From Candidatus Bathyarchaeota archaeon (GTDB lineage Archaea; Thermoproteota; Bathyarchaeia; Bathyarchaeales; Bathycorpusculaceae), in the NCBI GenBank assembly GCA_018396705.1, contig JAGTQZ010000002.1, forward strand, positions 186,001 through 250,000: a stretch of 64,000 nt of DNA, given 5' to 3'. Under the pieces are notes generated by a model. The model searched no databases, was not told the origin of the DNA, and saw only the letters and a list, made by a program, of their open reading frames with translations. A program made the position numbers and the translations under genes. Of this stretch, positions 25,205-61,746 are shown one piece after another; within the stretch, counting starts at the first letter, position 1; each line of letters opens with the position of its first letter.

Positions 25205-25262
25205 AGAGTTTAAATGTAAATCACAGATTTGAATAGTGAATCAGCACGTTAGGATGTTCATT

Positions 25263-26054: not shown

Positions 26055-26554
26055 TGGGTTTCTCTCTGACGCTTTCCCATATCATAATGGTTATTGCTTC
26101 TGTATGTTTGGCAAGTGTTTTTTCTGCCTACGCGTTCTATACTGGAAACCTTGTTCAAAACGAGTTGGCACAGAACGTTAACAACTATAAAGCCATGGTC
26201 AACATTAAACTGGAAATAGTCTACGCCACCGTAAACACCACTACGACACCATCACACTTTGTTATATACGCAAAAAACACTGGAAATCTGCCCATGAGCG
26301 ACTTCACTTTTCTAGATGTCTATGTAGGAGGGTATGGAAAAGCCCAGTTCTTCAAATACAACGCTACAGCAGGACCTGGAAGTGGACAGTTCAAGCTGTT
26401 AACCGCTGATGGAGACAACTATTGGGAGCCACGGGAAACCGCAGTTATAATAGCTTATCCCACAAGCGATATTGAAGGCGTGATCTTTGAGGCTAAAATT
26501 GTGCCGTCAAAAGGTATAGGTAGCAGCTACCTCTTCCCTGCACCGCCATCATGA
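26051..26554 (+). CDS. arlG: Archaellum stator protein ArlG
   Basis: One N-terminal transmembrane helix (IIMVIASVCLASVFSAYAFY) followed by a beta-rich extracellular domain with the KNTGNLPMSDFTFLDVYV pattern typical of ArlF/ArlG. ArlG forms a filament-like cap on the pseudoperiplasmic side that, with ArlF, anchors the motor to the S-layer. Assigned as G from the order X-G-F-H-I-J. It overlaps the previous gene by 4 bases. Confidence 0.7.
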   Translation: MMGFSLTLSHIIMVIASVCLASVFSAYAFYTGNLVQNELAQNVNNYKAMVNIKLEIVYATVNTTTTPSHFVIYAKNTGNLPMSDFTFLDVYVGGYGKAQFFKYNATAGPGSGQFKLLTADGDNYWEPRETAVIIAYPTSDIEGVIFEAKIVPSKGIGSSYLFPAPPS

Positions 26555-26570
26555 GGAGGCGGAAGCCTAC

Positions 26571-27098
26571 ATGGGTTTTTCCGTGACCATAACTTCCTCA
26601 ATCGTCCTAATAGCTATCTTCGCATTGGCAGTGTCTCTTTTAATAACAACATTCCAAGGACTAAGAGACATGTCGCATGTTGCTGAAGAATACATAAGCC
26701 GAGAAAAGGAAAAACTCAATGTTGCCTTACAATTGGAAGTCTACCCCATAAACGCTACAGCGTGTAACGTAACGGTAAGAAACATAGGCTCTCAAACAGT
26801 GTTCTTTGAAGATCAATCAGGCTTCAAATGGAACACTATAATTGTCTCCTATGGAAACAGTTCATTCTGGACAACTTATCAGATTGAAGATTACGTCATA
26901 TCTGAGGTTAGGGTTTCTGGAACGGACTACAGTTTTACGCCGAGAAGTCATCCCTATATAGAAGCTGGAGAGGAAGCCTACATTGTGTTTAACATTCCAG
27001 AAGGTGCTCCGGAAATCCCAATTAACGGTTTAGTTTCTGTGGTTTTTGTCTCCCATTATGGAGCTATAGCCAAAGCAGAGGCGGTAAGAAAACAATGA
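26571..27098 (+). CDS. arlF: Archaellum stator protein ArlF
   Basis: MGFSVTITSSIVLIAIFALA is the ArlF-type N-terminus, then a single membrane helix and a beta-sandwich domain with CNVTVRNIGSQTVFF and a YIEAGEEAYIVFNI strand. ArlF binds S-layer protein and serves as a stator. It starts 16 bases after arlG with GAGGAGG upstream, and overlaps arlH by 4 bases (ATGA). Confidence 0.7.
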   Translation: MGFSVTITSSIVLIAIFALAVSLLITTFQGLRDMSHVAEEYISREKEKLNVALQLEVYPINATACNVTVRNIGSQTVFFEDQSGFKWNTIIVSYGNSSFWTTYQIEDYVISEVRVSGTDYSFTPRSHPYIEAGEEAYIVFNIPEGAPEIPINGLVSVVFVSHYGAIAKAEAVRKQ

Positions 27099-27796
27099 AG
27101 GTTATAAGTTTGGGAATAGCCGAGCTTGACCGAGATCTTGGCGGCGGGCTTCCTCATCCAAGTCTTATATCCATTGAAGGAGAATATGGCTCAGGCAAAA
27201 CTATTTTCGTCCAGCAAATAGCAAAAGCAATGCTGAACGTTGGGCTTCGAGTATACATTATATCAAGCGAGGCGACAGTCAAAGAATACTTATCCATGAT
27301 GAGGTCGGTAAGGCTTGACGCTGATGACCATTACCTTTCTGGTCAACTCAACATATATCCATTACATATCGAGGGGGGAAGATGGAACGATTTCTTAAGC
27401 TCTTTCTTTCTCAAAGTGACGGCGAATTTCCTTGAACTGAAAAAAGCTTTGTATGATGCTGTAATCATCGACAGCCTTAGCGTTTTAACTGTGAACACGC
27501 CGCCTTCAGAATTTCTAACTTTCATCACAAGAATGAAAAACCTTGTTTCAGACGATAAAACGGTGGTTACAACATTCCATCCGGATTTTCTTTCGGAAGA
27601 AAACATTATGAAGTTGAGGGCAAGCTCAGACGTATACCTAATGTTAAAAAACGCCAGCATTTCAGGACTCGACGTGAAAGTACTCCGAGTTGTAAAACTT
27701 TGGGGGGTTAGCGGTGAAAGAAAAAGCGCCATAACCCTCGAAATCAACCCTCAAATAGGTTTGAGAGTTATGCCCCTCAGCGGCGTAAAAGTTTAG
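27095..27796 (+). CDS. arlH: Archaellum regulatory ATPase ArlH
   Basis: KaiC-like ATPase of 233 residues. It begins ISLGIAELDRDLGGGLPHPS, has Walker A GEYGSGKT at residues 29-36 and Walker B AVIIDSLSVL. ArlH binds ATP without strong hydrolysis and forms a ring below ArlI in the motor. Its usual FlaH context between F and I supports the assignment. Translation is coupled to arlF. Confidence 0.88.
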   Translation: MKVISLGIAELDRDLGGGLPHPSLISIEGEYGSGKTIFVQQIAKAMLNVGLRVYIISSEATVKEYLSMMRSVRLDADDHYLSGQLNIYPLHIEGGRWNDFLSSFFLKVTANFLELKKALYDAVIIDSLSVLTVNTPPSEFLTFITRMKNLVSDDKTVVTTFHPDFLSEENIMKLRASSDVYLMLKNASISGLDVKVLRVVKLWGVSGERKSAITLEINPQIGLRVMPLSGVKV

Positions 27797-27807
27797 GAAG
27801 TGGGATC

Positions 27808-29481
27808 ATGTCGAAAAAACTTAAACTAAGCCTACCAAAATTCTCCGGTTTCAAACTGTCGCTCTCCTCAAAAAAGGAGATGACAGAGGAGGATGCTTGG
27901 CCGTTCAAAAGAACCGTCTGTGAAACATTAGAGGAAGCCATGACTGAACATCCATATTTAAAGAAATACTTAGAAAGTTTACCAGAAAAACCCAAGTACG
28001 TTTTAAACCTCGAGCTAGAAGAGTACGGAAAAGACGACAACATAGTCTATCCTTTAGGTTTAGGCATATACGCCCACATAGACATCGGCGGGGAAATCGG
28101 AAAATACAATATGGTGGAGCCTGAAAAACCAGACCGCAAACTTCTCGATGAAATTGAAGAAGCCGTCGCCGTGCTCATTGGCGACAAAGAGTATAAAGGG
28201 CAAAAAGAACACGTACTAGCCTCGCTTTTTAAACAAGCTATTAAAAAGAAAATGGTTAAAATTCCAAAAGAAAAAGATGAAAATGCGATTCTCTACCATT
28301 TTTTGAGAGAAAAAATTGGACATGGTTTCATTGACGGTTTTTTAGCAGATCCATGGTTAGAGGATGTCAGCATACCCGGAGAAGGTAAAGTTTTCGTTTA
28401 CCATAAAATGTTTGGGCATCTTGAGACTAATGTTGATGTCTCAAAGGATGAGATTAACCGCCTTTTAAAAAACATATCTGAAAGGTATGGAAAAGTCCTA
28501 AGCTACACGCATCCAATAATCGACATACACCTGCCTGATGGCTCAAGGTTCAACATTGTCTACGGCGAGGACATAAGCCTAAGAGGAAGCAACTTTACCA
28601 TAAGAAAGTTCCCAAAAGAACCGATTTCAGTTGCCCAGCTTATACGATGGAAAACAATGTCCCCCGAGTTAGGCGCCTACCTTTGGATGCTTTTTGAGAT
28701 TGGAATATCCGCAATGGTTTGCGGAGAAACAGCGTCCGGTAAAACAACAACATTGAACGCTTTAATGGGTTTTATAAACTCGGACTCCAAAATCATAAGT
28801 ATAGAAGAAACCCCGGAAGTCAATCTTTTCCATAAAAACTGGATTAGAGAGGTTACAAGGCTTCATACAGGTGCACCGGTAACAATGTTCGACCTTTTGA
28901 AGGCAGCCCTCCGCCAGAGGCCAGACTACATTATCGTAGGCGAAATTCGAGGCGAGGAAGGCCGAGTGGCATTTCAAGCCATTGAAACAGGCCACCCAGT
29001 TATTTCCACCATGCATGCTGGAACCTTAGGCCAACTCTTCCAGAGGCTTACATCCCATCCAATAGACGTCCCTAAAACTCACATTGATGGGTTGAACCTA
29101 GCAATTTTTCAGGCAAGGATGGAGCGGGGTAAACGGTTCATACGGAGGGTTACATCTGTAAACGAGATAATAGGATACGAGCCCGACGAAGGACGGTTAA
29201 ACTATTTGCCAACATTCCTCTATGACCCAGACTTGGACAAAATAAGGTTTATGGGTTCAAGCTATCACCTTGAAACCAAGGTTTTGGCTTTCAGAGGCTG
29301 GGGTAAAGAGAGGCTGAGGGAACTTTACGACGAGTTAAGGGCTAGAGCTGAAATCTTAAGCTTTCTGGCAGAGAACTTTCCGCGGTACACAGACGTTTGG
29401 AAAACATGTATTGCTGTTCGGGAAAAAGGCGTCTGGGAAGTTTATCGAAGAGTTAAAGAGATGAAGGTTCCTTGGGAATAA
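27808..29481 (+). CDS. arlI: Archaellum assembly and rotation ATPase ArlI
   Basis: GspE-type secretion ATPase of 557 residues that powers archaellin assembly and rotation. The P-loop GETASGKTTT is at residues 306-315. The Walker B region and Asp/His boxes appear in YIIVGEIRGEEGRVAFQAIE and TGHPVISTMHAGT. The N-terminal 120 residues are charged and variable, as in other ArlI. The next gene starts inside it (10-base overlap). Confidence 0.94.
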   Translation: MSKKLKLSLPKFSGFKLSLSSKKEMTEEDAWPFKRTVCETLEEAMTEHPYLKKYLESLPEKPKYVLNLELEEYGKDDNIVYPLGLGIYAHIDIGGEIGKYNMVEPEKPDRKLLDEIEEAVAVLIGDKEYKGQKEHVLASLFKQAIKKKMVKIPKEKDENAILYHFLREKIGHGFIDGFLADPWLEDVSIPGEGKVFVYHKMFGHLETNVDVSKDEINRLLKNISERYGKVLSYTHPIIDIHLPDGSRFNIVYGEDISLRGSNFTIRKFPKEPISVAQLIRWKTMSPELGAYLWMLFEIGISAMVCGETASGKTTTLNALMGFINSDSKIISIEETPEVNLFHKNWIREVTRLHTGAPVTMFDLLKAALRQRPDYIIVGEIRGEEGRVAFQAIETGHPVISTMHAGTLGQLFQRLTSHPIDVPKTHIDGLNLAIFQARMERGKRFIRRVTSVNEIIGYEPDEGRLNYLPTFLYDPDLDKIRFMGSSYHLETKVLAFRGWGKERLRELYDELRARAEILSFLAENFPRYTDVWKTCIAVREKGVWEVYRRVKEMKVPWE

Positions 29482-31064
29482 CTAAAAAAGCGGCAAAAAC
29501 GTCAAGGGAAATTCTTTTATCCATTTTACTGCTGTTCCCGTCCTTACTATTTGCGATTTATTACATGTTTACTGGAAAAATTTTAGAGGCCGTCCTCGTT
29601 TTGCCAATGGGTTTAGGCATTTTACTAATCTTAAAACATATGGGCAGGCGGCGCCTTCCAAGAAGAGTGGATTTTAGCTTAACCACTACTATTTTTCACA
29701 TGTATAGTTTGTCTCTGGGAGAAACCTCTCCAGATGACTTGGTTGGCACAATAGCTGAAAACAAGGAATATGGCTTTTACAGCCAAGTGTTTAGAAAAAT
29801 CCGCAGTCTCGCAAAAGATTTTGGATACGGTATTACAAAGGCCACGGCGCATGTAGCTGAGGCTGTGAAGCCTCCCCTAAAGGATATACTTGTAAGGCTT
29901 ACCAACGTGTTTTCAAGCGTCGAACCCCGCGGCTATTTGGAAATGGAATCTTCAATGTTGATTGAAGAGTATTCTGGATATTACACGCGGGCAATTGAAA
30001 CATTAAAAACTCTTGGAGGAATATTCACTTCTTTCCAAAGCGTGACCGTCTTCCTAATAATGACTATTGTGATTATGGCAATTTTCATGATTGACCCAAG
30101 CGCTATAGTATTTGGCTATATAATTGCCGCATTTTCCGTCATAATGATGTATGTTCTTTTTAGGGCCTCTTCGCCGAGAGAGCGACTTGTATATATAGGA
30201 AGGTATCCTCCAAAACTTTATCTTGCCATGAAGTGGGGCTTAATTGCAACTGGAGCGTCCTCGACAACTCTTGCCATTTTACTGTATTTTTCAAAGGGCC
30301 CGCCTTTGGCTTTTACGACATTAGGCTTAGGCATAATTGTCCCTGGAATTTTTGGGTACATGCTGGAAAAACAGGTAAGCAAGATTGATAGGCATTACCC
30401 AACTTTTCTTAAGGCTCTCGGCGAGAACTTGGCCTCAACTTCAGATTTGAAGGCCGCCTTCTCATATATTATTCAGATGGAGCTTGGTCCTTTCAAAAAG
30501 CTTGTCAGAGAAGCCTTGGCTAGGTTGAGGCTTGGAATAGGCCATGAACAGACTTTAGAGACGCTTGCTTCTGAGGCGGCGTCCTATCAGGTTCACATCA
30601 GTAACAGAATTTTTTTGGATGCCTTAAGCCGGGGTGCTAATCCGCTTGAGATTGGCAACGCTCTTGGAAATCGTGTTGTGAGGTTTATTGAGTTTCGGAA
30701 GTCAAGAGACGTTGCGGCTAAGGGTTTTCAAATGATAGTGATGGTTATGCAGCCTTTAACTGTTATGCTGTTAATTGTTATGCAGGTGCTTGCAGACTTT
30801 ATGTCAAAGTATTTAGTGAATCTGCCATACTTTGGTTTCAACGCCATTCCAATTCCAGTGATCGAAGTGGGCAACATAGCCCTAATTTTCATAATGGCAA
30901 TAGTAAACGCATTAACAATAAAAGAGGTTTCAGGTGGCCACTGGGGCACTTTTCTATTAAACTTGGGCATACTTTTGACAGTCAGCGGTTTAACTTGGAT
31001 GGCAGCCCACATGTTTATAGAATTTGCCTTGGGTTCCATGCCAAGCCTAGAACTGCCCGTGTAA
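29472..31064 (+). CDS. arlJ: Archaellum polytopic membrane platform ArlJ
   Basis: A GspF/TadC-like membrane protein of 530 residues with about nine hydrophobic helices and two large cytosolic domains (about residues 60-170 and 260-400). These contain ESSMLIEEYSGYYTRAIETLK and KALGENLASTSDLKAAFSYI. It is the membrane core beneath ArlI. The TTG start lies within arlI. A short GGCAA-GGTT-TTGCC hairpin follows at 31080. Confidence 0.92.
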   Translation: MGITKKAAKTSREILLSILLLFPSLLFAIYYMFTGKILEAVLVLPMGLGILLILKHMGRRRLPRRVDFSLTTTIFHMYSLSLGETSPDDLVGTIAENKEYGFYSQVFRKIRSLAKDFGYGITKATAHVAEAVKPPLKDILVRLTNVFSSVEPRGYLEMESSMLIEEYSGYYTRAIETLKTLGGIFTSFQSVTVFLIMTIVIMAIFMIDPSAIVFGYIIAAFSVIMMYVLFRASSPRERLVYIGRYPPKLYLAMKWGLIATGASSTTLAILLYFSKGPPLAFTTLGLGIIVPGIFGYMLEKQVSKIDRHYPTFLKALGENLASTSDLKAAFSYIIQMELGPFKKLVREALARLRLGIGHEQTLETLASEAASYQVHISNRIFLDALSRGANPLEIGNALGNRVVRFIEFRKSRDVAAKGFQMIVMVMQPLTVMLLIVMQVLADFMSKYLVNLPYFGFNAIPIPVIEVGNIALIFIMAIVNALTIKEVSGGHWGTFLLNLGILLTVSGLTWMAAHMFIEFALGSMPSLELPV

Positions 31065-39102: not shown

Positions 39103-40104
39103 ATGACGGAACGGGAATTGAGGGTCGCTGTTGTCGGCTTCGGCAAGATGGGCATGCTACATGCTGGAATTTTGAACGTTTTGCCAAGGGTGAAGCTTGT
39201 CGCCATATGTGAGAAAAGTGGGTTGATTCGGAAGTTTTTGAGAAAGGCTGTTAGGGATGTTAGGGTTGCTGACTGTGTTGAGGCATTTTCAGAGCTTGGT
39301 TTGGATGCTGTTTATGTGACTACGCCGATAGAGTCGCATTTCCAAGTTGTTAAAAGCCTCTATGAACACGGCATCTACTGCAATCTTTTTGTTGAGAAGA
39401 CTCTTGCTTCAAATTTCAAAGAAGCCCAAGAGCTTTGCAGTTTAGCTGGGAAATTTGGCGGAGCCAACATGGTTGGATATTTGAGGCGTTTTTCCGTTAC
39501 TTTTAGGAAGGCTAAGGGTTTGTTAGATGAGGGTGTTATCGGCAAACCTGTGTCTTTCAGGGCTTATGCCTACTCCTCCGATTTTTTCGGGATTGACGGA
39601 ACCGCTAAGGTTCGAACGCCGAAGGTTGGAGTTGTCAGGGATTTAGGATGCCATGCGTTGGATTTGGCCTTATGGTTTTTTGGAGATTTACAGGTTGAAA
39701 ATGCAGAGGTTAAGTCGGTTGTAAATGATGGTTCTGTGGATTCAGCCCACTTTGAGGTTAAGGCTTCTGACGATATTCTCGGCGAATTTGATGTTTCATG
39801 GTGTGTTGACGGCTATCGCATGCCTGAAGTTGGCTTTTTAGTTGAGGGTTCTAATGGCTGTTTAAGCGTGAACGATGATGAGTTGGCGATAACTTTGAAA
39901 AACGGAAGAAGGCAAAGATGGTTTAGGCATGATCTTGGCGAACAGGTTGGTTTCTGGCTTGGAAGCCCTGAATACTACCGTGAAAATGAAAGCTTCGTGA
40001 ATGCTATTTTGCAAGGCAAAACTGCAGAGCCCTGTTTTGAGACTGCGGCTAAGGTTGACCGCTTAATAGATGAGGTTCTAGCTAAGGCTGATCGAATTGA
40101 ATAG
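39103..40104 (+). CDS. Gfo/Idh/MocA-family oxidoreductase 1
   Basis: NAD(P)-dependent sugar or cyclitol oxidoreductase. The Rossmann motif GFGKMG is at residues 12-17, and VEKTLASNFKEA replaces the usual EKPxA. The C-terminal alpha/beta domain has VVRDLGCHALDLALWFFGDL, the usual substrate-site His region. The Pro of the EKP motif is replaced by Thr. It overlaps the next gene by 8 bases, so the two are coupled. It could supply a sugar for the glycan locus downstream, but 1.8 kb of other genes intervene. Confidence 0.85.
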   Translation: MTERELRVAVVGFGKMGMLHAGILNVLPRVKLVAICEKSGLIRKFLRKAVRDVRVADCVEAFSELGLDAVYVTTPIESHFQVVKSLYEHGIYCNLFVEKTLASNFKEAQELCSLAGKFGGANMVGYLRRFSVTFRKAKGLLDEGVIGKPVSFRAYAYSSDFFGIDGTAKVRTPKVGVVRDLGCHALDLALWFFGDLQVENAEVKSVVNDGSVDSAHFEVKASDDILGEFDVSWCVDGYRMPEVGFLVEGSNGCLSVNDDELAITLKNGRRQRWFRHDLGEQVGFWLGSPEYYRENESFVNAILQGKTAEPCFETAAKVDRLIDEVLAKADRIE

Positions 40105-40999
40105 CCAAGATAAGGTTTTGCTTGTTGGCGATAACCCGTTCCATGGCATTAGCCATCTTTCGCAGGAAAGAAGCCGCACCAGAGGGGAAACGCCAACAAA
40201 CCCTACGTATGCGGCTAGGCTTATAGGGCTGGCTGTTGAGAACGGCGCCAATGGTTTCATGTTTTCTGTAAGCGAGAAAACTCTAACGATTTTGGATTTT
40301 TTGCGAAAAAACGGTGAAAACAACGGGTTACGCCTTTATGTCATTGTGCCATACGCCTATGAATATGTTAGGCTGGCGTGCGCAGCCGGAGGAATCCCGG
40401 GCTTAGCCAAAAAACTGATTAAAGAAATTGTTTTTTCCGGAAACCTGCGCGCCGCCACCTCTGGCCTAAATGGAGTTTTTAGGTCGGATCCAGCTTCACT
40501 TGTCAAAACTTATCTGCTCTACGAAATTTCTAGGGTTAAGCGTTCAGCCGGCGGAAAGGCCAAGCTTGAATCCGTGTTGCTGCATCAGCTTATAACCGAT
40601 TTATGTCTCAGTTTAGGCCTAGACTGGGTTTTTAGGCTTTACACAGAGTTTTTGTCGAAAGCTGGCATAATTCCAGGCTTTAACACTGGAAACTTCGCCT
40701 TTTTAGTGGAAAAGTTTAGAGAATGGAACATAAGCCTAGAAGACGTCGTGATTGCAGCACCGTTTAACAAAGTTGGTTTTCAAATGGTTCCGTCGAGGGA
40801 AGAATGTGAAAAGGCCTTGGAGAGCCTGACTAAACCTAGTGTTGTGGCTATAAGTATTTTGGCTGCCGGTTATTTGAAGCCTGAAGAAGCTGTAGACTAC
40901 ATTGCGGGTTTGCCAAACATTAAAGGTGTCGCTGTGGGCGTATCGAAAGAGAAGCATGCAACAGAAACTTTTAAGTTGTGTAGAATGAGACTTCTTTGA
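40097..40999 (+). CDS. Unrecognised TIM-barrel-like protein
   Basis: 300 residues starting at a TTG, overlapping the Gfo/Idh gene by 8 bases. The N-terminus GDNPFHGISHLSQERSR and the alternation of strands and helices (LRLYVIVPYAYEYVRLA, PSVVAISILAAGYLKPEEAV, GVAVGVSKEKHA) suggest a TIM barrel, perhaps a luciferase- or aldolase-like fold. I do not recognise the family. The coupling implies action on the same compound as the oxidoreductase. Confidence 0.6.
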   Translation: MNSQDKVLLVGDNPFHGISHLSQERSRTRGETPTNPTYAARLIGLAVENGANGFMFSVSEKTLTILDFLRKNGENNGLRLYVIVPYAYEYVRLACAAGGIPGLAKKLIKEIVFSGNLRAATSGLNGVFRSDPASLVKTYLLYEISRVKRSAGGKAKLESVLLHQLITDLCLSLGLDWVFRLYTEFLSKAGIIPGFNTGNFAFLVEKFREWNISLEDVVIAAPFNKVGFQMVPSREECEKALESLTKPSVVAISILAAGYLKPEEAVDYIAGLPNIKGVAVGVSKEKHATETFKLCRMRLL

Positions 41000-50212: not shown

Positions 50213-51340
50213 ATGCATATTTGTATGATTTCTGGTTATTATACAAGTCCTGGTGGACTTGAAAACGTTGTTCGCGATTTAAGTATTTTCCTAGCTCAGA
50301 ATAGCTGTAAAGTGACAGTTTTCAGCATGTATTATAAAGATTTAGTTGGGGAAACGCAAAATATTAAGCATATAGTTCTTTCTCCAAACAACATTTTACC
50401 TAGAATATTACGATTTGCCAATTATGAAAGATATGCTTACAATCTAAGAGTTTGGAGACGGATAAAACAAGAAAACTCATTTGACATTATTCACGGACAT
50501 AGTGGATATTGCTTTTTTAATGCTCTATTCAGGGATAAAAAACCCTTCATTATGACTTTTCATGGTCTAAAAAGAGCTGCTAAGATTAGGATTTACGGGT
50601 CTAATTCACGCATTTTAAAGAACCCAAGGTCTCTACCACTTTACTTTCCCGAAGAAATTGCGGCTAAAAAATGTGATTTAGCTATAGCGCCTTCAAAAAG
50701 TGTGAAGGACGAACTTATTAGTATTTATGGAATTCACCCATCAAAAATTAAGGTAATATACAACGGAGTCAACACAGATCAATTTAAACCAATGAACAAG
50801 GATTTAGCCAAAAAAATTTTGAGGTTACCTAAAAATAAGGACTATGTCATTTGGGTAGGGAATAATCCGGAATTAAAAGGATTATCCACCGCCATAGATG
50901 CTGTCAAGGGCTTAAGGGATGTTTACTTAATAGTGGTGGGAGTTTCTGGAACAAACTTTGAGAATATCATTTTTTGGGGAGAGGTCCAAGACAAAGCTCA
51001 GCTATGTAAGCTATATAACTCCGCTAGTCTATTAATACTTCCAACGCTTTATGAAGGCTTTCCATTGGTAACGCTGGAAGCTATGGCGTGTGGATTACCA
51101 ATAGTTATTTCCCAAGAATGCCCCACCAAAGAGATAATAAACGACGGGCTTGAGGGATTTGTCGTTAATGAAAGAAATCCTAAAGCTTATTCTGAGAGAA
51201 TCAAGTATATTCTAGATCTAGATAATCATAATTATCAAGAAATGTCGTTTAGGTGTCGAAAACTTGCAGAGAAATACAGTTGGGAAAATCAAGGGAAGGA
51301 ATACCTAAAAGTATATAATACATTCTATCAGAGATTGTGA
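50213..51340 (+). CDS. Family 4 glycosyltransferase 1
   Basis: 375 residues, GT-B fold. The N-terminal half has MISGYYTSPGGLENVVRDLS and the HGHSGYCF region. The C-terminal half has VIYNGVNTDQFKP, VWVGNNPELKGLSTAIDAVK, ILPTLYEGFPLVTLEAMACG (E-x7-E motif) and GLPIVISQECPTKEII. It uses a nucleotide sugar to extend the glycan. GGAGG lies 10 bases upstream. Confidence 0.9.
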   Translation: MHICMISGYYTSPGGLENVVRDLSIFLAQNSCKVTVFSMYYKDLVGETQNIKHIVLSPNNILPRILRFANYERYAYNLRVWRRIKQENSFDIIHGHSGYCFFNALFRDKKPFIMTFHGLKRAAKIRIYGSNSRILKNPRSLPLYFPEEIAAKKCDLAIAPSKSVKDELISIYGIHPSKIKVIYNGVNTDQFKPMNKDLAKKILRLPKNKDYVIWVGNNPELKGLSTAIDAVKGLRDVYLIVVGVSGTNFENIIFWGEVQDKAQLCKLYNSASLLILPTLYEGFPLVTLEAMACGLPIVISQECPTKEIINDGLEGFVVNERNPKAYSERIKYILDLDNHNYQEMSFRCRKLAEKYSWENQGKEYLKVYNTFYQRL

Positions 51341-51367
51341 CAAGTCTCTAATCATCTAGGATTTGGT

Positions 51368-51390
51368 ACTTTCAGTGCAGAAAGTTCTTT
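51368..51390 (+). terminator. Hairpin with T-rich tail after glycosyltransferase
   Basis: ACTTTC-AGTGCA-GAAAGT forms a 6-bp stem with a 6-base loop followed by TCTTT. It is in the 148-base gap between the GT4 and racemase genes. No other feature is evident in the gap apart from AAGGAG before the racemase. Confidence 0.35.
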
Positions 51391-51488
51391 GACTTAGCTT
51401 GTTGGTACGCTTTTGTGCTATTTTTAAACATAAAATAATACTCAACGAATTTAACGGAAAAGCTAGATGTTCATAAGGAGACACTTAA

Positions 51489-52184
51489 ATGAGAGAGAAA
51501 ACAATCGGAATATTGGGTGGAATGGGTCCTGAAGCCACAGCTGAGTTATTTTACAGGATAATTAAACTAACTCCAGCGATGAGAGACCAAGATCATTTGA
51601 AAATAATAATCTATAACAATCCGAAGATACCTGATAGAAGCGAAGCTATCATAAAAGGCACAAAAAGTCCTTTAAATGAGTTGGTGCAAGCGGCAAGGAG
51701 TCTAGAAAAAATGGGAGTAGACTTTATTATCATACCATGCAATACAGTACATTACTACTATGATGAGTTAACAAAGAAAGTGGGGGTTCCGATAATAAAT
51801 ATGATCGAATTAACTGCAAAGAAAATAAGCGAGCTGTATCCCCACATACGAACAGTCGGGATAATTGCTACAACGGGAACTGTTAAAGCAAGAATATATG
51901 ATTGCGCAATGCACAAAAGGAATATCCAAGTGATATACCCATCATTCGAAATGCAAGCTGCTGTTATGAGAACGATATATAAAATTAAGGCAGGACGCAC
52001 AAGAGGTAAAGAGGTTTTGATTAGCACCATTAAGCATCTCATACAAAAAGGCTCTCAGGCTATCATAAGCGGATGCACAGAAGTTTCTTTAGCCTTAAAA
52101 AATGTAGCTGAAACAATTCCCATAATCGATCCATTACAAATTCTTGCAGAAGAAGCTGTAAAAACTGCTTTGACGGAATTTTAA
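51489..52184 (+). CDS. Aspartate/glutamate racemase family protein
   Basis: 231 residues of the PLP-independent Asp/Glu racemase family. The two catalytic cysteines are in IIPCNTVHYYYDEL and IISGCTEVSLAL. ILGGMGPEATAELFYRII is the usual N-terminus. It would interconvert L- and D-aspartate or glutamate. The ATP-grasp ligase starts 47 bases later, so a D-amino acid may be attached to a glycan or peptide acceptor (inference). Some family members are hydantoin racemases or maleate isomerases instead. Confidence 0.88.
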   Translation: MREKTIGILGGMGPEATAELFYRIIKLTPAMRDQDHLKIIIYNNPKIPDRSEAIIKGTKSPLNELVQAARSLEKMGVDFIIIPCNTVHYYYDELTKKVGVPIINMIELTAKKISELYPHIRTVGIIATTGTVKARIYDCAMHKRNIQVIYPSFEMQAAVMRTIYKIKAGRTRGKEVLISTIKHLIQKGSQAIISGCTEVSLALKNVAETIPIIDPLQILAEEAVKTALTEF

Positions 52185-52231
52185 TGCTAATCTAACATTT
52201 TGGAAGAGCTTGTAACTGTAGAGGGCAATTC

Positions 52232-53455
52232 TTGAAATCAGATAGTTCTGATTCTTCAATTCACCCTTCAATCATAATGGTCATGGGAGGAACTGATTGT
52301 AACGGTTTGGGAATAATTCGTGCCTTCGGAAAGCGCAAAATACCTGTTATACTTCTGAACATAAATAATTATGATGTAATGCGATATTCAAAATACGTGA
52401 CATTAAGGCTGAAATGCCCAAATACTTTAGAGTGCGAAGACAGCCTTGTAAATTTTTTGATAAAGTTTGGAAGACATATTAACGAAAAAATTATGTTTAT
52501 CCCCGCAAGCGACTATGAAGTCTTATTCCTGTCTAAAAATAAAGAAAGACTGGAACAGTATTATTATATTCCAACACCTTCCTACGAGATCGTTCAAAAC
52601 ATAGTCAATAAAAAGAAGTTTTACAAAATGCTGGAAAAGATGAATTTCCCCCATCCAAAAACATATTTCCCTAAAGATTTAGATGATTTACAAAGAATGG
52701 GATATGAAATCAATTATCCATTTATTATTAAGCCAGCTTATTCTTTCCAATTTTTCCAAGAATTCGGTAAGAAAAATTTTGTTATACACTCATATGACGA
52801 GCTTTTATGGGCCGTCAATAAGTTGAGGAATAAAAGCTTGGAGATAATAGTGCAGGAATTGATACCAGGAAGAGATATATACATGTTTTATACATACCTC
52901 AACAAGCAATCAGAACCCATCGCAATTTGCGGTTACGACAAAATTTTGCAATTTCCAGATGATTTTGGTTCTGGTTCTTATTGTAGAAGTAGACTACGTG
53001 CCTCACCAATAAAAGAATGTATTAGGTTGTTAAGAGAAATTAAATACCACGGGTTTGCTGAACCAGAATTGAAAAAAGACCCCCGAGATGGTGTTTATAA
53101 GCTTTTAGAAATAAACGCAAGGACTACAACGCAAAACAGATTAGCAGCAGCATGTGGGGTAGACATTGAATATCTTGCATACCTCGACGCAAGAGGGGAG
53201 CTTAATAAAAATTATTCTACATTTCGAGAAAATATAAATTGGGCTGCTGACCTAACATATATCCTGTCATGTCTTAGACTTCAAAGGCAAGGGCAACTTA
53301 AATTTAAAGATATGCTCAGAATAATTAAAACTCGTAAGGTACATTCAATACGCGATTTTGATGACCCTTTTCCATACATTTTTTACATGTTTAAGTTAAG
53401 TTTAAGAACAGTTAATCAGAAGGTTAAAGCTTTAACTCAATCTATGAGATTTTAA
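52232..53455 (+). CDS. ATP-grasp carboxylate-amine ligase
   Basis: 407 residues with an ATP-grasp core: INYPFIIKPAYSFQFFQEFG for the ATP-binding Lys, IIVQELIPGRDIYMFYTYL, and FAEPELKKDPRDGVYKLLEI then NARTTTQN for the metal-binding Glu/Asn. The N-terminal IIMVMGGTDCNGLGIIRAFG is the pre-ATP-grasp Rossmann-like domain. Similar enzymes ligate amino acids to carboxylates. The TTG start has GAGGG 7 bases before. Next to a racemase it resembles the D-aspartate ligase arrangement of Gram-positive bacteria; the acceptor is unknown. Confidence 0.82.
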   Translation: MKSDSSDSSIHPSIIMVMGGTDCNGLGIIRAFGKRKIPVILLNINNYDVMRYSKYVTLRLKCPNTLECEDSLVNFLIKFGRHINEKIMFIPASDYEVLFLSKNKERLEQYYYIPTPSYEIVQNIVNKKKFYKMLEKMNFPHPKTYFPKDLDDLQRMGYEINYPFIIKPAYSFQFFQEFGKKNFVIHSYDELLWAVNKLRNKSLEIIVQELIPGRDIYMFYTYLNKQSEPIAICGYDKILQFPDDFGSGSYCRSRLRASPIKECIRLLREIKYHGFAEPELKKDPRDGVYKLLEINARTTTQNRLAAACGVDIEYLAYLDARGELNKNYSTFRENINWAADLTYILSCLRLQRQGQLKFKDMLRIIKTRKVHSIRDFDDPFPYIFYMFKLSLRTVNQKVKALTQSMRF

Positions 53456-53497: not shown

Positions 53498-54628
53498 ATG
53501 CGTGTGCTTATGGTTTCTCCTTCCTATTTTCCGATTAAGGGTGGGGCTGAAACGGTAATTCACGATATATCCGTTAAACTGAACAGTGTAGGCGTTTATA
53601 CGGACATTTTAACTTTCAACATGGACCGTAAATGGAAGCCCCGCTGGCACGGTAAAACCGAAAAAAATGGCAAAGCAACAATTCACAAGATTCCAGCGTT
53701 AAACTGGTTTCCGCTAACCCATTCGGACAGAATAACTATGGGAATAAATCTAATCCCCGGAAAATTTAGAGGCATACTAAAGAAATATGACATCCTCCAT
53801 TTTCATGGAGGAGACCTAACCCTTCCCTTATTCTCCTATGGAGTTAGAAAACCAAAAATTTTCCATCTACATGGATTATCGCCAGAATTCTACAAGAAAT
53901 ATTTCATAAGTAGGCTGATCCTAAAAAATGCGGCACAAACCTACATTTGCCTAACAAAAACCATGAAAGAACAGCTCACAAGCTTAGGAATACCTGAAGA
54001 GAGAGTTAAGATACTGCCAAACGGAGTAGACACCAGCCAGTTCCACCCAACAAAAGAGAAAGATGAAAACATGATCCTTTTCGTGGGCAGGGTATGCCAG
54101 GAAAAAGGAATAGACACTTTGCTGAAGGCGCTGAACCACTTAGAAACACCCGTAAACCTAACCATAATCGGGCCGGAAGACTGGAACCCAAACCACTTCC
54201 AAAGAACATTAGAACTAATCCGAAAAGAAAACGAGAAAGGAAAACACAAAATCAACTATTTGGGACCAAAAAATCGTGAAGAAATAATATCCTACTACCA
54301 GAAAGCCTCACTTCTAGTTTTGCCATCAAGAAGAGAAGGCTTCCCAATGGTTATCCTAGAAGCCCTAGCCTGCGAAACCCCAGTTATAGCCACAAACATC
54401 AACGGAATACCAGAAATACTTCAAAACAACAAATGCGGTATAATAGTCCCTCCAGATAACCCTCAAACCCTTACAGAAGCCATACAATTCTTACTAGATA
54501 ACGATGACATCAGGACAAAACTAGGCTGCCAAGGAAGAATTTTAGTTGAGCAGCATTACTCCTTAGATGTAATCGTAGAAAAACTATGCAGCATTTACGA
54601 TGAAACAATCTCAAACTTTGGTGATTAA
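53498..54628 (+). CDS. Family 4 glycosyltransferase 2
   Basis: 376 residues, GT-B fold. It has SYFPIKGGAETVIHDIS, FHGGDLTLPLFSYG, ILPNGVDTSQFHPTKEK, MILFVGRVCQEKGIDTLLKA, LLVLPSRREGFPMVILEALA and NINGIPEI. The 3' end overlaps the deacetylase gene by 8 bases. The GC content rises a little here compared with the preceding genes. Confidence 0.92.
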   Translation: MRVLMVSPSYFPIKGGAETVIHDISVKLNSVGVYTDILTFNMDRKWKPRWHGKTEKNGKATIHKIPALNWFPLTHSDRITMGINLIPGKFRGILKKYDILHFHGGDLTLPLFSYGVRKPKIFHLHGLSPEFYKKYFISRLILKNAAQTYICLTKTMKEQLTSLGIPEERVKILPNGVDTSQFHPTKEKDENMILFVGRVCQEKGIDTLLKALNHLETPVNLTIIGPEDWNPNHFQRTLELIRKENEKGKHKINYLGPKNREEIISYYQKASLLVLPSRREGFPMVILEALACETPVIATNINGIPEILQNNKCGIIVPPDNPQTLTEAIQFLLDNDDIRTKLGCQGRILVEQHYSLDVIVEKLCSIYDETISNFGD

Positions 54629-55577
54629 ACTGCGCAAAATCTATTTCACTTTCGACGTGGAAGATTTTACAAACGAAATGGCATTCATAGCCCTACAGAT
54701 AACCATAGAACTCTTAAACAAATACAATTTTAAAGGCATATTCTTCATAACTGGACATTTCGCCGAAAAACTTCAAAAATACCCCAAAATAGTTGAGCTG
54801 CTTGAAGAACACGAGATAGGTTACCATTCTTCAAGTCACTCCGTTCACCCAACAATCTTCGAGTTCACAGACATAGAAAACTACAAAGAAGCCTATGAAA
54901 CATCATTAAAAAGAGAAACATCACACATAAACCCGTTAACCGGCGAAATTGAAGGAAAAGGCGGAATCCTCACTCTGCAAAAACTGTTTCCCTCCAAAAA
55001 AATTAAATCTTTCAGGGCGCCTGGACACTGCTGGATTCCACCCCATCTCGAAGCTCTTCGGGAACTTGGAATAAAATTCGACTTTTCATCTAACCTCACA
55101 AATGTCCCCGCCCAATACAAAGGAATAACTTTTTATCCCTACCCGATCTTAGCGCAGTGGAACGGCAAATTCGCCGACTTCAGGCTTTTCTGGACAACCG
55201 TTGCCAAAAACCAGAACATTGTCATTGGTTTACATCCAAGCCTCTTCACCACATACGACGGATGGGACCAGATATACTTCAACGGAAACCCAAAAACCAT
55301 AACACCATCAAAACCAAGAAGCCTGTCAGAAATAAGAAGCCTAATTAAAAGCTTCGACCTATTCCTCAAAAACATCAAAATTTTAGAAAAAATAAAATTT
55401 CTAGAAGTAGAGTCAAATTTAAAAAATGCTGAAAACGATGTGACCGTCAACAGAGACATCGTAGAGAAATGTTATGAGCACAGCATGCGATGGGCAAAAA
55501 GAGTTTTCAATTATCAACCGAGATTCCAAAGAAAACACTTTTACGAGTTCTTTAAAATACCTGAACTTAAACGCTGA
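54621..55577 (+). CDS. NodB-type polysaccharide deacetylase
   Basis: 318 residues from the GTG at 54621; an ATG at 54600 lies further inside the GT4 gene. The N-terminal IYFTFDVEDFTN is the Asp-Asp motif, GYHSSSHSVHP is the His-x3-His metal site, and FRAPGHCWIP is the third motif. It would remove N-acetyl groups from a sugar before further modification. Coupled to the upstream glycosyltransferase. Confidence 0.88.
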   Translation: MIKLRKIYFTFDVEDFTNEMAFIALQITIELLNKYNFKGIFFITGHFAEKLQKYPKIVELLEEHEIGYHSSSHSVHPTIFEFTDIENYKEAYETSLKRETSHINPLTGEIEGKGGILTLQKLFPSKKIKSFRAPGHCWIPPHLEALRELGIKFDFSSNLTNVPAQYKGITFYPYPILAQWNGKFADFRLFWTTVAKNQNIVIGLHPSLFTTYDGWDQIYFNGNPKTITPSKPRSLSEIRSLIKSFDLFLKNIKILEKIKFLEVESNLKNAENDVTVNRDIVEKCYEHSMRWAKRVFNYQPRFQRKHFYEFFKIPELKR

Positions 55578-55679: not shown

Positions 55680-56390
55680 ATGAGTTCTGGAGTGCTTTTT
55701 ATTAAAGAGTTCTATGATGAAAATAATTGGCGAGAAATAGTTGAGGAACACTCCAGAAATGTAGACAGGGAAGAAAAAAGTTTCGTATTAAATTCTTTGG
55801 GTCCCCTTCATGGTTGTACAGTGCTCGACGCCGGATGTGGGTATGGTCGGTACCTTAAATTTCTTAAAAAATTTGGATTTAATGTTGTTGGGATTGATAT
55901 TTCCAAAAATCTTATAAAAAAGGCAAAGTTGCACGGAGATGTCGTGGTAGCGGACTTGCAACACCTTCCTTTTTGTGATGAAGCATTTGACGCAAGTATT
56001 AGTGTTTACGGACCTTTAAATCACATCCCGGATATTTCAAAAGGTCTTGTTGAATTAAAGAGAGTTACCCGAAAACGTGTCATTGTTTCCTTATTTAATT
56101 TTTTTTCATGGTATGGAATTTGGATAAACTTAAGATTTCTAATTCCCATATATCTAAAGCTCAGACCGCTAATAGCTAGATTAAAATGTAATCTAGTGCA
56201 TTATTACCTTGGATATTTGGATATAGGTGCCAAAGAGATATGGAATTTTTCGACAACATCTACCCCCAAATCGGCCCTAAAATATTTTCATTCCATTGGC
56301 TTTAGAAAAACTACATGGAAACCGATAGTTAAATACTTTCAAGCGTCTAATATTTTCTGCTTTTTAATAGGTCTTGTTGCAGATATTTAG
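55680..56390 (+). CDS. SAM-dependent methyltransferase
   Basis: 236 residues, class I Rossmann fold. It has VLDAGCGYGRYLKFLKKFGF, VVGIDISKNLIKKA, and VADLQHLPFCDEAFDASISV as the typical UbiE-like motifs. The C-terminal part has a hydrophobic patch (YGIWINLRFLIPIYL) suggesting membrane contact. It may methylate a sugar, or another acceptor. GAGGGG precedes the ATG by about 7 bases. Confidence 0.88.
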   Translation: MSSGVLFIKEFYDENNWREIVEEHSRNVDREEKSFVLNSLGPLHGCTVLDAGCGYGRYLKFLKKFGFNVVGIDISKNLIKKAKLHGDVVVADLQHLPFCDEAFDASISVYGPLNHIPDISKGLVELKRVTRKRVIVSLFNFFSWYGIWINLRFLIPIYLKLRPLIARLKCNLVHYYLGYLDIGAKEIWNFSTTSTPKSALKYFHSIGFRKTTWKPIVKYFQASNIFCFLIGLVADI

Positions 56391-56423: not shown

Positions 56424-57509
56424 ATGAAGATAATAGAAGTTAATAATTACCAAGATTTCCTTTCTCTGAAAAACGAGTGGGCAAATCTTCTAGAGAAATG
56501 CGATCATACTGTTTTCTCTACATGGGAGTGGCTTTCAACATGGTGGAAATATTTTGGAAGCGATAAAAAACTTATCCTCCTATTAGCCACGAAAAACGAT
56601 GAGATTATTGGAATAGCACCATTGATGTATTCAACTAGAAAAGTATTAGGTTTTAATGAGGGAAAAATAGCATTTATTGGAACACCCCATACAGATTACA
56701 ATGATTTTATAATAGCAGACGAGAGGAATGAATGTATACGTCTTTTCATCGAGTATCTGAAGAAACTTCCAGAAAAATGGAGTTATATAGAATTATCTGA
56801 AATACCAGAAAATTCAAAATCGCTACCAATCCTTAGCAAATTGTCAAACACTTTAAAAGCTTCCTCTGTGTGCCCATATAAACCACTCCCAAAATCTATT
56901 GACGCGTTTCGGGCCAGCCTGAGTAGAAATATGAAACGTAATTTGAGAAGATATATGGAAAAAGCCAAAAAAGAGTTCGAGGTAGAGTTTTCAGACTACT
57001 CTAAAGTTGAATCATGCATTGAAGGCATGCATTTGCTCTTTAAGCTTCACCAGAAAGAATGGACATCAAAGGGCTATCCTGGTGTCTTCGCTAACATAAA
57101 CCTTCGTAATTTCCATCTTGAAATTGCAAAAATTTTTGCGGGGAGAAGATGGTTAGGTCTATTTTTGCTCAAACTTTCGGGCAGACCTGCTGCGGTGGTT
57201 TATGGATTCAAAGATCAGAGAAAGTTTTACGGCTATCTTTCCGGTTTCGACCCCATTTATTCTAAATACAGCGTTGGAAATTTGCTTATAGCTCATGTCA
57301 TAGAAAAATGTATTGAAGAAGGACTGTCGGAATTTGATTTTATGAGGGGTGATGAAAAGTACAAAGTATTATGGGAAACAATCTTGAGATGGAACCAAAC
57401 TGCTATAATCTCAAGAAGCGGTATCCTTTCTAATACCTGGCGCAAGTTATACTTGAAAATTTGGGATAGTGTTAAAACAAAATACTTTTGTGATTTATTT
57501 TCAACATAG
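56424..57509 (+). CDS. CelD/FemAB-like GNAT acyl- or aminoacyltransferase
   Basis: 361 residues. Two GNAT-like halves: FSTWEWLSTWWKYFG is the N-terminal signature of the CelD/BcsL family, and the second half has MKRNLRRYMEKAKKEFEVEF, LLKLSGRPAAVVYGFKDQRK and DPIYSKYSVGNLLIAHVIEK then FDFMRGDEKYKVLW. Such proteins acylate cell-surface polysaccharides or, as in FemAB, transfer amino acids. With the racemase and ATP-grasp ligase upstream this supports aminoacyl decoration, by inference. GAGGAGG precedes the ATG. Confidence 0.82.
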   Translation: MKIIEVNNYQDFLSLKNEWANLLEKCDHTVFSTWEWLSTWWKYFGSDKKLILLLATKNDEIIGIAPLMYSTRKVLGFNEGKIAFIGTPHTDYNDFIIADERNECIRLFIEYLKKLPEKWSYIELSEIPENSKSLPILSKLSNTLKASSVCPYKPLPKSIDAFRASLSRNMKRNLRRYMEKAKKEFEVEFSDYSKVESCIEGMHLLFKLHQKEWTSKGYPGVFANINLRNFHLEIAKIFAGRRWLGLFLLKLSGRPAAVVYGFKDQRKFYGYLSGFDPIYSKYSVGNLLIAHVIEKCIEEGLSEFDFMRGDEKYKVLWETILRWNQTAIISRSGILSNTWRKLYLKIWDSVKTKYFCDLFST

Positions 57510-57587: not shown

Positions 57588-59066
57588 ATGGGTAAAGACT
57601 GTAAAATACTTCTTCTAAATTTGCCGAGCCCACCCAATCAAACACTCTGGAGAGAAAATGCTGGAGGTTTTGGCACAGCAATTTCTATTAATCCCCGATG
57701 GAAAGAGTCTAGTAGAATACCTCTAATTCCATTTTTTCCTTATGCTTCTTCAATCCTCTTGAATGAAGGATACGAGTTTAAGGTCATCGATTGCCAAAGA
57801 CTAAACTTAGACAACGACCAAAGCGTAAGATTGGTTAAAAAAGTAAACCCAGATATAATTTTTTCCATAATCTCGCTACCTTCAATGAAAAATGACGTCA
57901 AAGTTTTGGATGAAATAAAAGAATTTGTTCCATCGGTGAAAATAGTCGGTGTCGGAACGGTTTGCCGTGTACTTCCTCACGAAGTTTTGCTTAGAGGTAA
58001 AATAGATGTTGTTTTGCGTAGTGGCTACCCATACATTGCCAACATGATTAAGTTAATTCGAGCACTTCAACAAAATAGAAACCTTAAAACTGTAGAAGGT
58101 ATTTCCTTTGTTAAAAATCGACAAATTTTCACTACTTCAAAGCCCACAGAAATGAATTTTAATGAATTGCCAAAACCTTGCTATGATTTAATCCCTCCTG
58201 ACGGCTACGAAACTTTTGAAGATGAAAATGGAGAACGATTTCCTTACGTGGCAGTATTAGACAGCATAGGATGTCCATATAACTGCATATACTGCCCATA
58301 CCCTCTTGGATTTGGTCGAAAATACACTTACAGACCTATAAAATTAGTAGCTGACGAAATCGAAGAATTATACACCCGTTTTAACATTCGGGCATTTGAT
58401 TTCAGAAGTCAAGCTTTTGCATACAATAAAAAGCGCGCATTAGAAATTTGTAAAGAACTAATGCAGAGAAAACTTGACATCAAATGGACGTGTGAATCAA
58501 GAGTTGATGAGGTCAACAGAGAACTTTTGGAAGTGATGAAAAAAGCGGGTTGTCGGCGCATACATTTTGGAGTTGAAACCGGGGATCCAGAAATCCTCAA
58601 AGTAGCAAAACCAGGCGTTAAATTAGAAACAATTGAAAAAGTATTTAAAATTACAAAAGCGCTGGGTATAATAAGACAAGCTCACATTATTTTAGGGTGG
58701 CCTGATGATGATTATAGAACATTAGAAAACACAAATAAATTTATCCTTAAACTAGAGCCTGATATTTTAAATTTGAACTTTTTAACTCCTTACCCTGGAA
58801 CCAAAATGTACGAAATAGCCAGAAAAAACTCTCTAATTCTCACCTATGATTGGTCGAAGTATACCTCTTATAACATTATTATGCGAACAAAAAGCCTTAA
58901 CGCAAGTGACCTTTATACAATTAAACAGAAAATGGTACGCGATTTCTCTAAACAAAAATTAAAACGACTTATTCTTCAGAAAGACCGCCCAATAGTCAAG
59001 AGACCGCAAATATTCGTTAATAAAGCAAAGACTCTAGTAAACAGGATAATATTCCCGCAATTTTAA
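57588..59066 (+). CDS. B12-binding radical SAM protein 1
   Basis: 492 residues. The N-terminal part resembles a cobalamin-binding domain (NPDIIFSIISLPSMKNDVKV then VGVGTVCRVLP). The radical SAM cysteines C229-x3-C233-x2-C236 are in GCPYNCIYCPYPLGFGRKYT. SRVDEVNRELLEVMKKAGCR and GVETGDPEILKVAKPGVKLE follow, as in BchE-like enzymes. It could methylate or rearrange a sugar or lipid in the glycan. It is a close paralogue of 60251-61746. Confidence 0.88.
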   Translation: MGKDCKILLLNLPSPPNQTLWRENAGGFGTAISINPRWKESSRIPLIPFFPYASSILLNEGYEFKVIDCQRLNLDNDQSVRLVKKVNPDIIFSIISLPSMKNDVKVLDEIKEFVPSVKIVGVGTVCRVLPHEVLLRGKIDVVLRSGYPYIANMIKLIRALQQNRNLKTVEGISFVKNRQIFTTSKPTEMNFNELPKPCYDLIPPDGYETFEDENGERFPYVAVLDSIGCPYNCIYCPYPLGFGRKYTYRPIKLVADEIEELYTRFNIRAFDFRSQAFAYNKKRALEICKELMQRKLDIKWTCESRVDEVNRELLEVMKKAGCRRIHFGVETGDPEILKVAKPGVKLETIEKVFKITKALGIIRQAHIILGWPDDDYRTLENTNKFILKLEPDILNLNFLTPYPGTKMYEIARKNSLILTYDWSKYTSYNIIMRTKSLNASDLYTIKQKMVRDFSKQKLKRLILQKDRPIVKRPQIFVNKAKTLVNRIIFPQF

Positions 59067-60250: not shown

Positions 60251-61746
60251 GTGAGAGAGCCCAAAATTCTCCTCCTTAACATTCCCAGTCCAGCTGATCA
60301 AAGACTTTGGAGAGACGATGCTGGCGGATTTGGAGTGGCAATACATGTCCCACAAAAATTCAAAAATAGCCGAGAAACAACTCTTCACCCGTTTTTTCCA
60401 TATGCTTCTGCGCTTCTTTTAAAAGCAGGATACGAATTCAAAGTTTATGATTGCCAAAGACTGAGGCTATGCAGCACCGATGAAGTTTTAGCCCTAGTCA
60501 GAAAGGAAAATCCAGACATCATATTCTCTATAATTTCCCTACCATCAATATGGAATGATTTGAGCGTTCTAACCGAAATAAAGAAAATTCTTCAAAACGT
60601 ATGGACCATAGGTGTTGGAACCGTTTGCCGCGTTATTCAAAGAGAAGTGTTGTGCAAAGGCGGTGTAGACGCAGTTCTTCGCAACGAGTTTCCACACGTT
60701 TTGGGCATAATTGAACTCATCGAAGCGTTACAACGGCGCCAAGATCTAAAAGGTGTTAAGGGTGTTTCATACATGAAAAATGGACAAATAATTAATAATC
60801 CCGCATTTCCAGAACTTAACATCAATGACTTGCCAGAGGCTTGCTACGATTTTATTCCGCTCGATGGTTATGAAACTTTCACAGATAAATATGGGGAACG
60901 CTTCGCTTATGTATCAATACTGGATAGTAAAGGTTGTTCATACAAATGTTTTTACTGTCCCTACCCACTGGGTTATGGTGAAAAATGGTCTTTTAGAAGC
61001 CCAAAATCAATAGTGGATGAAATGGAAAGATTGCACAATAACTACAATATAGAAGGTTTCGCATTTAGAGGACAATCCTTTGCTTACAACAAAGAACAAG
61101 CAATTAAATTAAAATATGCGATGAAATCATAAAAAGAAATCTCGACATAGCTTGGATATGTGAATCAAGAGTTAACGAAATTTCCAAAGAACTTCTATTA
61201 AAAATGAAGGAAGCAGGGTGTCGAAGAATACATTACGGAGTTGAAACAGGGGATCCAGAAACTCTAAAAATCGCAAAGACAGGTGTACAGCTGGAAACAA
61301 TAGAAAGAGCGTTTAAACTATCAAAGGAGATGGATATACTAACTCAAGCTCACATCATCTTAGGGTGGCCAAATGAAACAATTAAAACCATCGAAAACAC
61401 GAGAAAACTTATACTTAAACTGGACCCTGACATATTAAACATAAACTTTCTAACACCATATCCAGGAACCAAACTATATAAAGTAGCTTTGCAAAATTCT
61501 CTTTTAATAACAACCGACTGGTCAAAGTTCACCTCTCACGATATCGTCATAAAAACTAAAAATCTCAGCACAACAGAACTTTTCAAACTTAAAAATAAAA
61601 TAGTCCGAGACTTTTTAAAGCAAAAACTCAAAAAACTACTGTTGAATATAAGCGCGTATAAAAGACCGTATTACTTATTAAATTCAGCTAAAAAAATGAT
61701 GGAGGAAATTGTTTTCCCACAACCCATCGACGGTGGTGGCGCTTAA
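60251..61746 (+). pseudogene. B12-binding radical SAM protein 2, frameshifted
   Basis: Two frames together give a protein of about 498 residues, parallel to 57588-59066. The first frame (GTG 60251) has NIPSPADQRLWRDDAGGFGV, the B12-domain part and the radical SAM cysteines C229, C233 and C236 (GCSYKCFYCPYPLGYGEKW), and stops at 61130-61132. The second frame continues with ICDEIIKRNLDIAWICESRV and CRRIHYGVETGDPETLKIAK. The -1 shift lies at 61105-61116 in AAATTAAAATAT. No other stop intervenes, so it is either a young pseudogene or a sequencing error. Confidence 0.75.

Follow-up and report, generated by a model that had tools for sequence, protein, structure and literature searches.

A gene for an aspartate racemase and a gene for an ATP-grasp carboxylate-amine ligase lie side by side among the glycan genes of a Bathyarchaeia archaeon, and the arrangement suggests, but does not prove, that the surface sugars of this organism carry D-aspartate. 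The reading that we prefer, with a probability of about 0.4, is that the racemase and the ligase are a working pair in a surface-glycan operon, and that D-Asp is joined to an amine group on a precursor of the glycan. The presence of D-amino acids in a cell envelope is taken as a hallmark of bacterial walls, and Bathyarchaeia are an abundant sediment lineage. If the reading is true, the chemistry of D-Asp racemase and ligase is used outside peptidoglycan, in an archaeal glycan locus without Mur ligases, and the pair offers an entry point to the surface chemistry of Bathyarchaeia. A preliminary description of the same DNA had reached a similar view, and is supported in part: the two genes do form a pair, for which bacteria have a counterpart of the same family, but relatives do not preserve the pair as such, and D-Asp on the glycan is still something that we infer.

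Gene order and identity of the two enzymes

The window, by which we mean the whole stretch of 64,000 nt that was analysed, is G000:C2:186001-250000, where G000 is an archaeal genome of 1.71 Mb in 9 contigs with a completeness of 96.7%. The class member G017 belongs to the same family. The features that matter for the argument are listed here, in window coordinates except for the last two.

50213..51340, + strand: GT4 glycosyltransferase upstream of the racemase (PF13439, 103 bits; PF00534, 95 bits)
51341..51488, + strand: gap before the racemase, AT-rich; the sequence shows a stretch that may be an archaeal TATA-like element, and GGAG as a putative ribosome-binding site immediately before the ATG
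51489..52184, + strand: aspartate racemase, PLP-independent, of the two-cysteine type (TIGR00035); 231 amino acids, ATG start
52232..53455, + strand: ATP-grasp carboxylate-amine ligase (PRK06849/PRK12767-like), proposed to be a ligase of D-Asp or another acid; 407 amino acids, TTG start
53498..54628, + strand: GT4 glycosyltransferase downstream of the ligase (PF00534, 143 bits)
54600..55577, + strand: polysaccharide deacetylase, CE4-like (PF01522, 29.8 bits, cut-off 23.1); its translation contains TFDVED and HSSSH motifs
55680..56390, + strand: class I methyltransferase (PF08241, 64 bits)
56424..57509, + strand: Acetyltransf_6 (CelD-like GNAT) acyltransferase (PF13480, 110 bits); homologues in L045, L046, L049, L050 and L114
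61814..62704, + strand: DUF362 protein, member of a recurring glycan-locus set (PF04015, 124 bits); homologues in L046, L049, L050 and L114
62723..63715, + strand: Gfo/Idh/MocA-type oxidoreductase, member of the recurring glycan-locus set, below equivalog cut-offs; homologues in L049, L050, L114 and L233
L119 5540-7117: flippase-like gene, just past the window end
L119 9385-11442: exosortase/archaeosortase-family gene, about 9.4 kb past the window end (TIGR04178, 49.3 bits, cut-off 23)

On the + strand, the first glycosyltransferase gene is separated from the racemase by 148 nt, the racemase from the ligase by 47 nt and the ligase from the second glycosyltransferase gene by 42 nt, and this last gene overlaps the polysaccharide deacetylase by 29 nt. 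The preliminary description spoke of an Asp/Glu racemase beside an ATP-grasp ligase in a glycan locus. Both genes are intact open reading frames, and the two GT4 genes, the deacetylase, the methyltransferase and the Acetyltransf_6 gene around them bear out the setting. Its "CelD/FemAB-like" transferase at 56424 is confirmed in so far as the Acetyltransf_6 model matches with 110 bits, but the FemAB model gives 22 bits against a cut-off of 260, and the label must therefore be taken to mean a distant GNAT relative.

A homologous pair of GT4 and deacetylase genes is also present in G038 (L237). Upstream of the racemase, the GGAG motif and the AT-rich stretch may mark the start of a transcription unit. 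A sigma-70 promoter scan of the region was set aside as uninformative for an archaeon, and no Rfam families were found in the region. Two window ORFs (60251-61132 and 61204-61746) look like the halves of an apparently split radical SAM/B12 protein, and resemble the ORF at 57588-59066. Upstream of the glycan locus there is an archaellum-like cluster at 25236-31064, from which pilin/archaellin-like genes extend to 34264, and which has an ArlI/FlaI motor ATPase at 27808-29481 (532 bits, cut-off 550).

The racemase scores 155 bits with PF01177 (cut-off 31) and 229 bits with TIGR00035 (cut-off 93.1), and its best solved relative is the Pyrococcus aspartate racemase 1jfl (PhAspR; E 2.4e-65, 50% identity). 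When it is aligned with PhAspR and nine archaeal relatives, both catalytic-cysteine positions are seen to be kept, as C84 and C196 in PCNT.H and GCTE contexts. Conversion of L-Asp to D-Asp is known chemistry of the racemase family. The genome has another PF01177 gene (C1:53821), which was weighed as a rival racemase and rejected; by eye its translation resembles hydantoin-type racemases, and it adjoins a DUF917-like gene. It is absent among the genome's matches to the window racemase at E <= 0.001, and is therefore not of the TIGR00035 type.

The ligase is matched only distantly by sequence models (PF02786 with 28 bits; PRK06849 and PRK12767 below cut-off), a sequence search gave no match to a solved structure, and in phage records its matches are weak and partial. 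An AlphaFold2 model built from 18 aligned sequences has a mean pLDDT of 87.9, and its top structural matches are ATP-grasp proteins, namely 2pn1 (Z 27.3), PurK-type enzymes, the L-amino acid ligase 3vot (Z 24.9) and PylC. The ATP-grasp residues K127, E209 and the E-x-N-x-R motif (N295, R297) are conserved. An ATP-grasp fold is thus predicted with confidence by the model, and the fold is silent on the substrate.

ATP-grasp ligases are widely used in the synthesis of small peptides (PMC2922099), and the likeness to 3vot is in line with a pair whose product is a soluble metabolite with D-Asp, or a modified protein, rather than a glycan. Such a product is very unlikely for genes that are flanked on both sides by glycosyltransferases and then followed by a polysaccharide deacetylase, and with relatives in Bathyarchaeia, Priestia, Cytobacillus and Halorussus that sit in glycan-type loci.

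Linkage of the genes and history of the racemase

When the 256 genomes of the class are compared, a close racemase occurs in 24 and a close ligase in 18 of them, and both occur together in the window genome only. The preliminary description had called for a comparison of neighbourhoods in relatives, and took absence of linkage in all of them as decisive against the pair. The outcome comes near to this: a six-frame profile search detected a ligase of the window type near none of the 23 other close racemases of the class (0/23). It falls short of it in G133, where a gene of a distant racemase subfamily is adjacent to the ligase. The neighbours of the 23 racemases are unrelated genes, with a HemL-like aminotransferase in three cases (G001, G018 and G027).

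Seen from the side of the ligase, PF01177 has six matches in four of the 18 ligase genomes (a single frame of G040 accounts for two), and two of the six directly adjoin the ligase, the window's and that of G133. This means that one of the 17 other ligase genomes has a ligase-adjacent gene of the racemase family. In G133 this is the sole PF01177 gene of the genome; it belongs to the PRK07475 subfamily (267 bits) and keeps both cysteine positions. The probability that a PF01177 gene and the ligase become adjacent by chance in any of the three non-window PF01177 genomes is, by a rough estimate, about 0.003, with about 1,500-3,300 genes per genome and with the window left out, as it was chosen for its adjacency. 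The G133 genes form a single run on one strand (L115 4568-9447) of PRK07475-type racemase, ATP-grasp ligase, octopine dehydrogenase, methyltransferase and PIG-L.

The closest relatives of the window ligase are found in G032, G007 and G028, and these genomes have no PF01177 gene at all, from which it follows that the ligase family does not need a racemase. Since no other of the 256 genomes has the close pair, and since sister ligases occur without an aspartate racemase, the link is not conserved as such: racemase and ligase are not a conserved unit in relatives.

The same observations speak for a racemase that is a general metabolic gene, landed by chance in a glycan operon, next to a ligase that works independently on another acid. 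The racemases of relatives sit in unrelated contexts (the HemL-like aminotransferase in three genomes, other genes elsewhere), the sister ligases do without any PF01177 gene, and at 34-37% GC the region is richer in AT than the window as a whole (41.6% GC), which would fit mobile DNA. Against chance, adjacency to a gene of the racemase family recurs in G133, where that gene is the only one of its kind, and in two lineages of Firmicutes whose ligases are of the same family; in the window, the racemase has a glycosyltransferase gene on one side and the ligase, only 47 nt away, on the other. On balance we find a chance landing doubtful, while granting it a substantial share of the probability.

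The history of the racemase has a bearing on the reading of a working pair. The racemase of G001 and G018 is flanked by a small gene of 88 aa on one side and by the HemL-like aminotransferase on the other, and that of G027 adjoins the same aminotransferase at a contig end. The window genome keeps this neighbourhood, with syntenic genes that are mostly 62-98% identical to those of G001, but lacks the racemase at the site conserved in its three relatives, so that its sole racemase of this type is the one in the glycan operon. The HemL-like aminotransferase is in two frames in the window genome (G000:C2:156519-157827; L230 8520-9831) and in a single frame in the three relatives, which reflects either decay or a sequencing error.

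The racemase tree places the window protein among those of its taxonomic family (SH-aLRT 91), on a long branch of 0.68, and it is 54% identical to the racemase of G001. Because of the long branch and the low identity, the gene would either have moved from the original site and evolved fast, or have been acquired from a relative once the original had been lost. An identity of 54%, compared with mostly 62-98% for the syntenic neighbours, also means that the racemase may be a foreign copy kept for another reason. The GC content is 37% for the racemase and 34% for the ligase. A conserved-core glycan gene at 40097-40999 is absent in the other three genomes in the genus and has a patchy distribution across the family and order, which is what a mobile glycan island would lead one to expect.

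Bacterial counterparts and the proposed coupling of D-aspartate

Among the best 80 racemase loci from GTDB genomes, two have a high-scoring ligase of the window type nearby, and both are from Halobacillus (278 and 274 bits). The gene order ATP-grasp, Mur ligase, Asp racemase is found in Halobacillus (L204, L215) and in Acetoanaerobium (L219); in Acetoanaerobium noterae the three genes are 55-68% identical to their Halobacillus counterparts. The ATP-grasp proteins of these bacteria score 274-290 bits with the A1 profile; their identity to the window ligase is 29-30%. A tree was built from 36 ligases, and in it a clade of 18 rows (100/100) unites the window ligase with those of Halobacillus, Acetoanaerobium, Priestia and Cytobacillus. 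The smallest supported group with the window ligase has five archaeal proteins (98/97), none of which has been seen with an adjacent racemase.

The window and the bacterial operons thus have in common the ligase clade, the racemase family and the placing of the genes side by side, and differ by the Mur ligase that stands between ligase and racemase in the bacteria. The likeness to the bacterial D-Asp racemase/ligase arrangement, to which the preliminary description drew attention, is accordingly more than superficial, and the window ligase is related to racemase-linked bacterial ligases at the level of the family, with a common function as a possibility. The window ligase shares 87 of the 252 columns that are invariant in three bacterial ligases, and the Priestia ligase shares 85; this excess is marginal, which speaks against the D-Asp reading if anything, and the count was dropped as evidence for a shared function.

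Halobacillus peptidoglycan is of the L-Orn-D-Asp type. This wall type is reported among Bacillales (PMC9781867), and the reported wall types and the gene order together suggest, indirectly, that the ligases of Halobacillus and Acetoanaerobium may add D-Asp in L-Orn-D-Asp cross-links; this indirectness counts against the D-Asp reading for the window. Known enzymes with the same proposed chemistry are RacD and AslA/Aslfm of Lactococcus and Enterococcus faecium, where genes for an aspartate racemase and an ATP-grasp carboxylate-amine ligase form one operon and serve the peptidoglycan cross-bridge; the lactococcal D-Asp ligase AslA is an ATP-grasp enzyme that acts via beta-aspartyl phosphate, with racD in its operon (PMC4155827). 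The window ligase is about 21% identical to the Limosilactobacillus fermentum carboxylate-amine ligase, which was compared in place of Aslfm.

The difference is that these genes belong to a cell-wall locus and the window genes to a glycan locus, in a genome where no Mur ligase is detected. PF08245 has no match in this 96.7%-complete genome, while 12 of 14 control genomes are positive, and the remark in the preliminary description that there is no sign of peptidoglycan genes here therefore holds for the Mur ligases. The missing PF08245 match also sets the window apart from the pseudomurein cluster with its ATP-grasp protein (OG0001014; PMC11915815), the Mur-type ligases of which have no counterpart found in the window genome.

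Consider then how the pair could work in the glycan operon. The racemase would convert L-Asp to D-Asp. The ligase, by analogy with AslA, would use ATP to activate a carboxylate of D-Asp as an acyl phosphate, and couple it to an amine. The acceptor would most likely be a sugar amine of the glycan precursor, exposed by the deacetylase encoded nearby, and less likely a uronic acid carboxylate that takes the amine of Asp. The D-aspartyl glycan could finally be exported by the flippase-like protein encoded past the window end. D-Asp as the substrate, the acceptor, the location in the cell and the sequential action of the two enzymes are what we infer, and the D-Asp reading is supported by the racemase-linked bacterial ligases in the same clade, by the adjacency in G133 and by the presence in the glycan operon of the genome's only racemase of this type, which is missing at the site conserved in three relatives.

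An amino acid on an archaeal surface glycan has a precedent in Methanococcus voltae and M. maripaludis, where threonine is attached to C-6 of a uronic acid in the archaellin N-glycan (PMC2952790); the enzyme that attaches it is not identified in that paper. The window glycan locus is also near an archaellum cluster, but the Methanococcus group is Thr, with no racemase known. As the window genome has a gene of the UDP-sugar dehydrogenase family, the group could also be an amide of a uronic acid, like the Thr of the Methanococcus glycan. The preliminary description was not aware of a system like the one it proposed. This must be narrowed, since amino-acid groups as such are known from archaeal glycans, but the literature searched gave no earlier case of an archaeal surface glycan with a D-amino acid.

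Ligases of the window family in other glycan loci

Bathyarchaeia ligases of the window family are often found in glycan-type loci with Acetyltransf_6, DUF362, Gfo/Idh and glycosyltransferase genes (L047 is an exception), and homologues of the Acetyltransf_6 gene lie near the ATP-grasp gene in several related loci. Window-family ligases of Priestia, Cytobacillus and Halorussus are likewise in loci of the glycan type. A gene for a sugar N-deacetylase, either PIG-L or a polysaccharide deacetylase, is near the ligase in ten loci tested as well as in Priestia and Cytobacillus.

What varies is the small-molecule enzyme that adjoins the ligase: a racemase in the window and in G133, an octopine dehydrogenase in G133, a LysA-like decarboxylase in G038 (and, by eye, in G157), and homologues of ComA and ComB (PF02679, PF04029) in G079 (L109 385-1935) and G130 (L117 4061-5649), where in G130 a PIG-L gene also adjoins the ligase. 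For the G079 and G130 loci, a sulfolactate-type group on the glycan is possible.

These neighbourhoods lead to the hypothesis of a modular arrangement, in which the deacetylase would expose an amine, the ligase would acylate it, and a neighbouring gene would supply the acid. In its wider form, which we put forward tentatively as one possible account, a common ligase and a sugar N-deacetylase couple interchangeable small acids to Bathyarchaeia glycans: D-Asp in the window, which would give the surface glycan of an archaeon a D-amino acid, and elsewhere acids of the ComA/ComB sulfolactate type, products of the LysA-like decarboxylase and products of octopine dehydrogenase. The pattern of ligase, deacetylase and changing supplier gene gives concrete, testable predictions for several other genomes.

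A family of ligases that decorates glycans with various acids could also mean that the window pair itself handles a different acid, e.g., Glu or cysteate, as the ComA/ComB and LysA-like neighbours of related ligases might suggest. With CuyB, the model for cysteate racemase, the window protein scores above the cut-off (254 against 190), but PhAspR does so too (251), so that the score does not discriminate between substrates, and it was dropped as a sign of a sulfonate substrate. With aspartate racemases as the closest solved enzymes, and with no ComA/ComB gene recognised in the examined part of the window locus, another acid is rather unlikely for this pair.

The modular arrangement has a parallel in the biosynthesis of mycothiol and bacillithiol, where a PIG-L deacetylase exposes the amine of glucosamine and a separate ligase adds Cys. 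The logic of sugar N-deacetylase and amino-acid ligase is the same and is seen in the related loci with PIG-L, but mycothiol and bacillithiol are soluble thiols, the amino acid is Cys, and the ligases have other folds. There is also a likeness to bacterial exosortase EPS loci of the XrtA/PEP-CTERM type, in the exosortase-family gene, the flippase-like gene, GT4 and deacetylase, and, in G038, in the LysA-like decarboxylase and FemAB relatives. The models specific to those loci, however, stay below their cut-offs: 21.9 against 260 for FemAB (TIGR03019), 65 against 208 for exosortase A (TIGR03109) and 119 against 409 for the glycosyltransferase (TIGR03088).

On the Priestia megaterium plasmid pBM600 (L220 4013-8207), a relative of the ligase lies with PIG-L, GT4 and phosphotransferase genes near spore-coat genes, and this is possibly a cluster for a spore-surface glycan.
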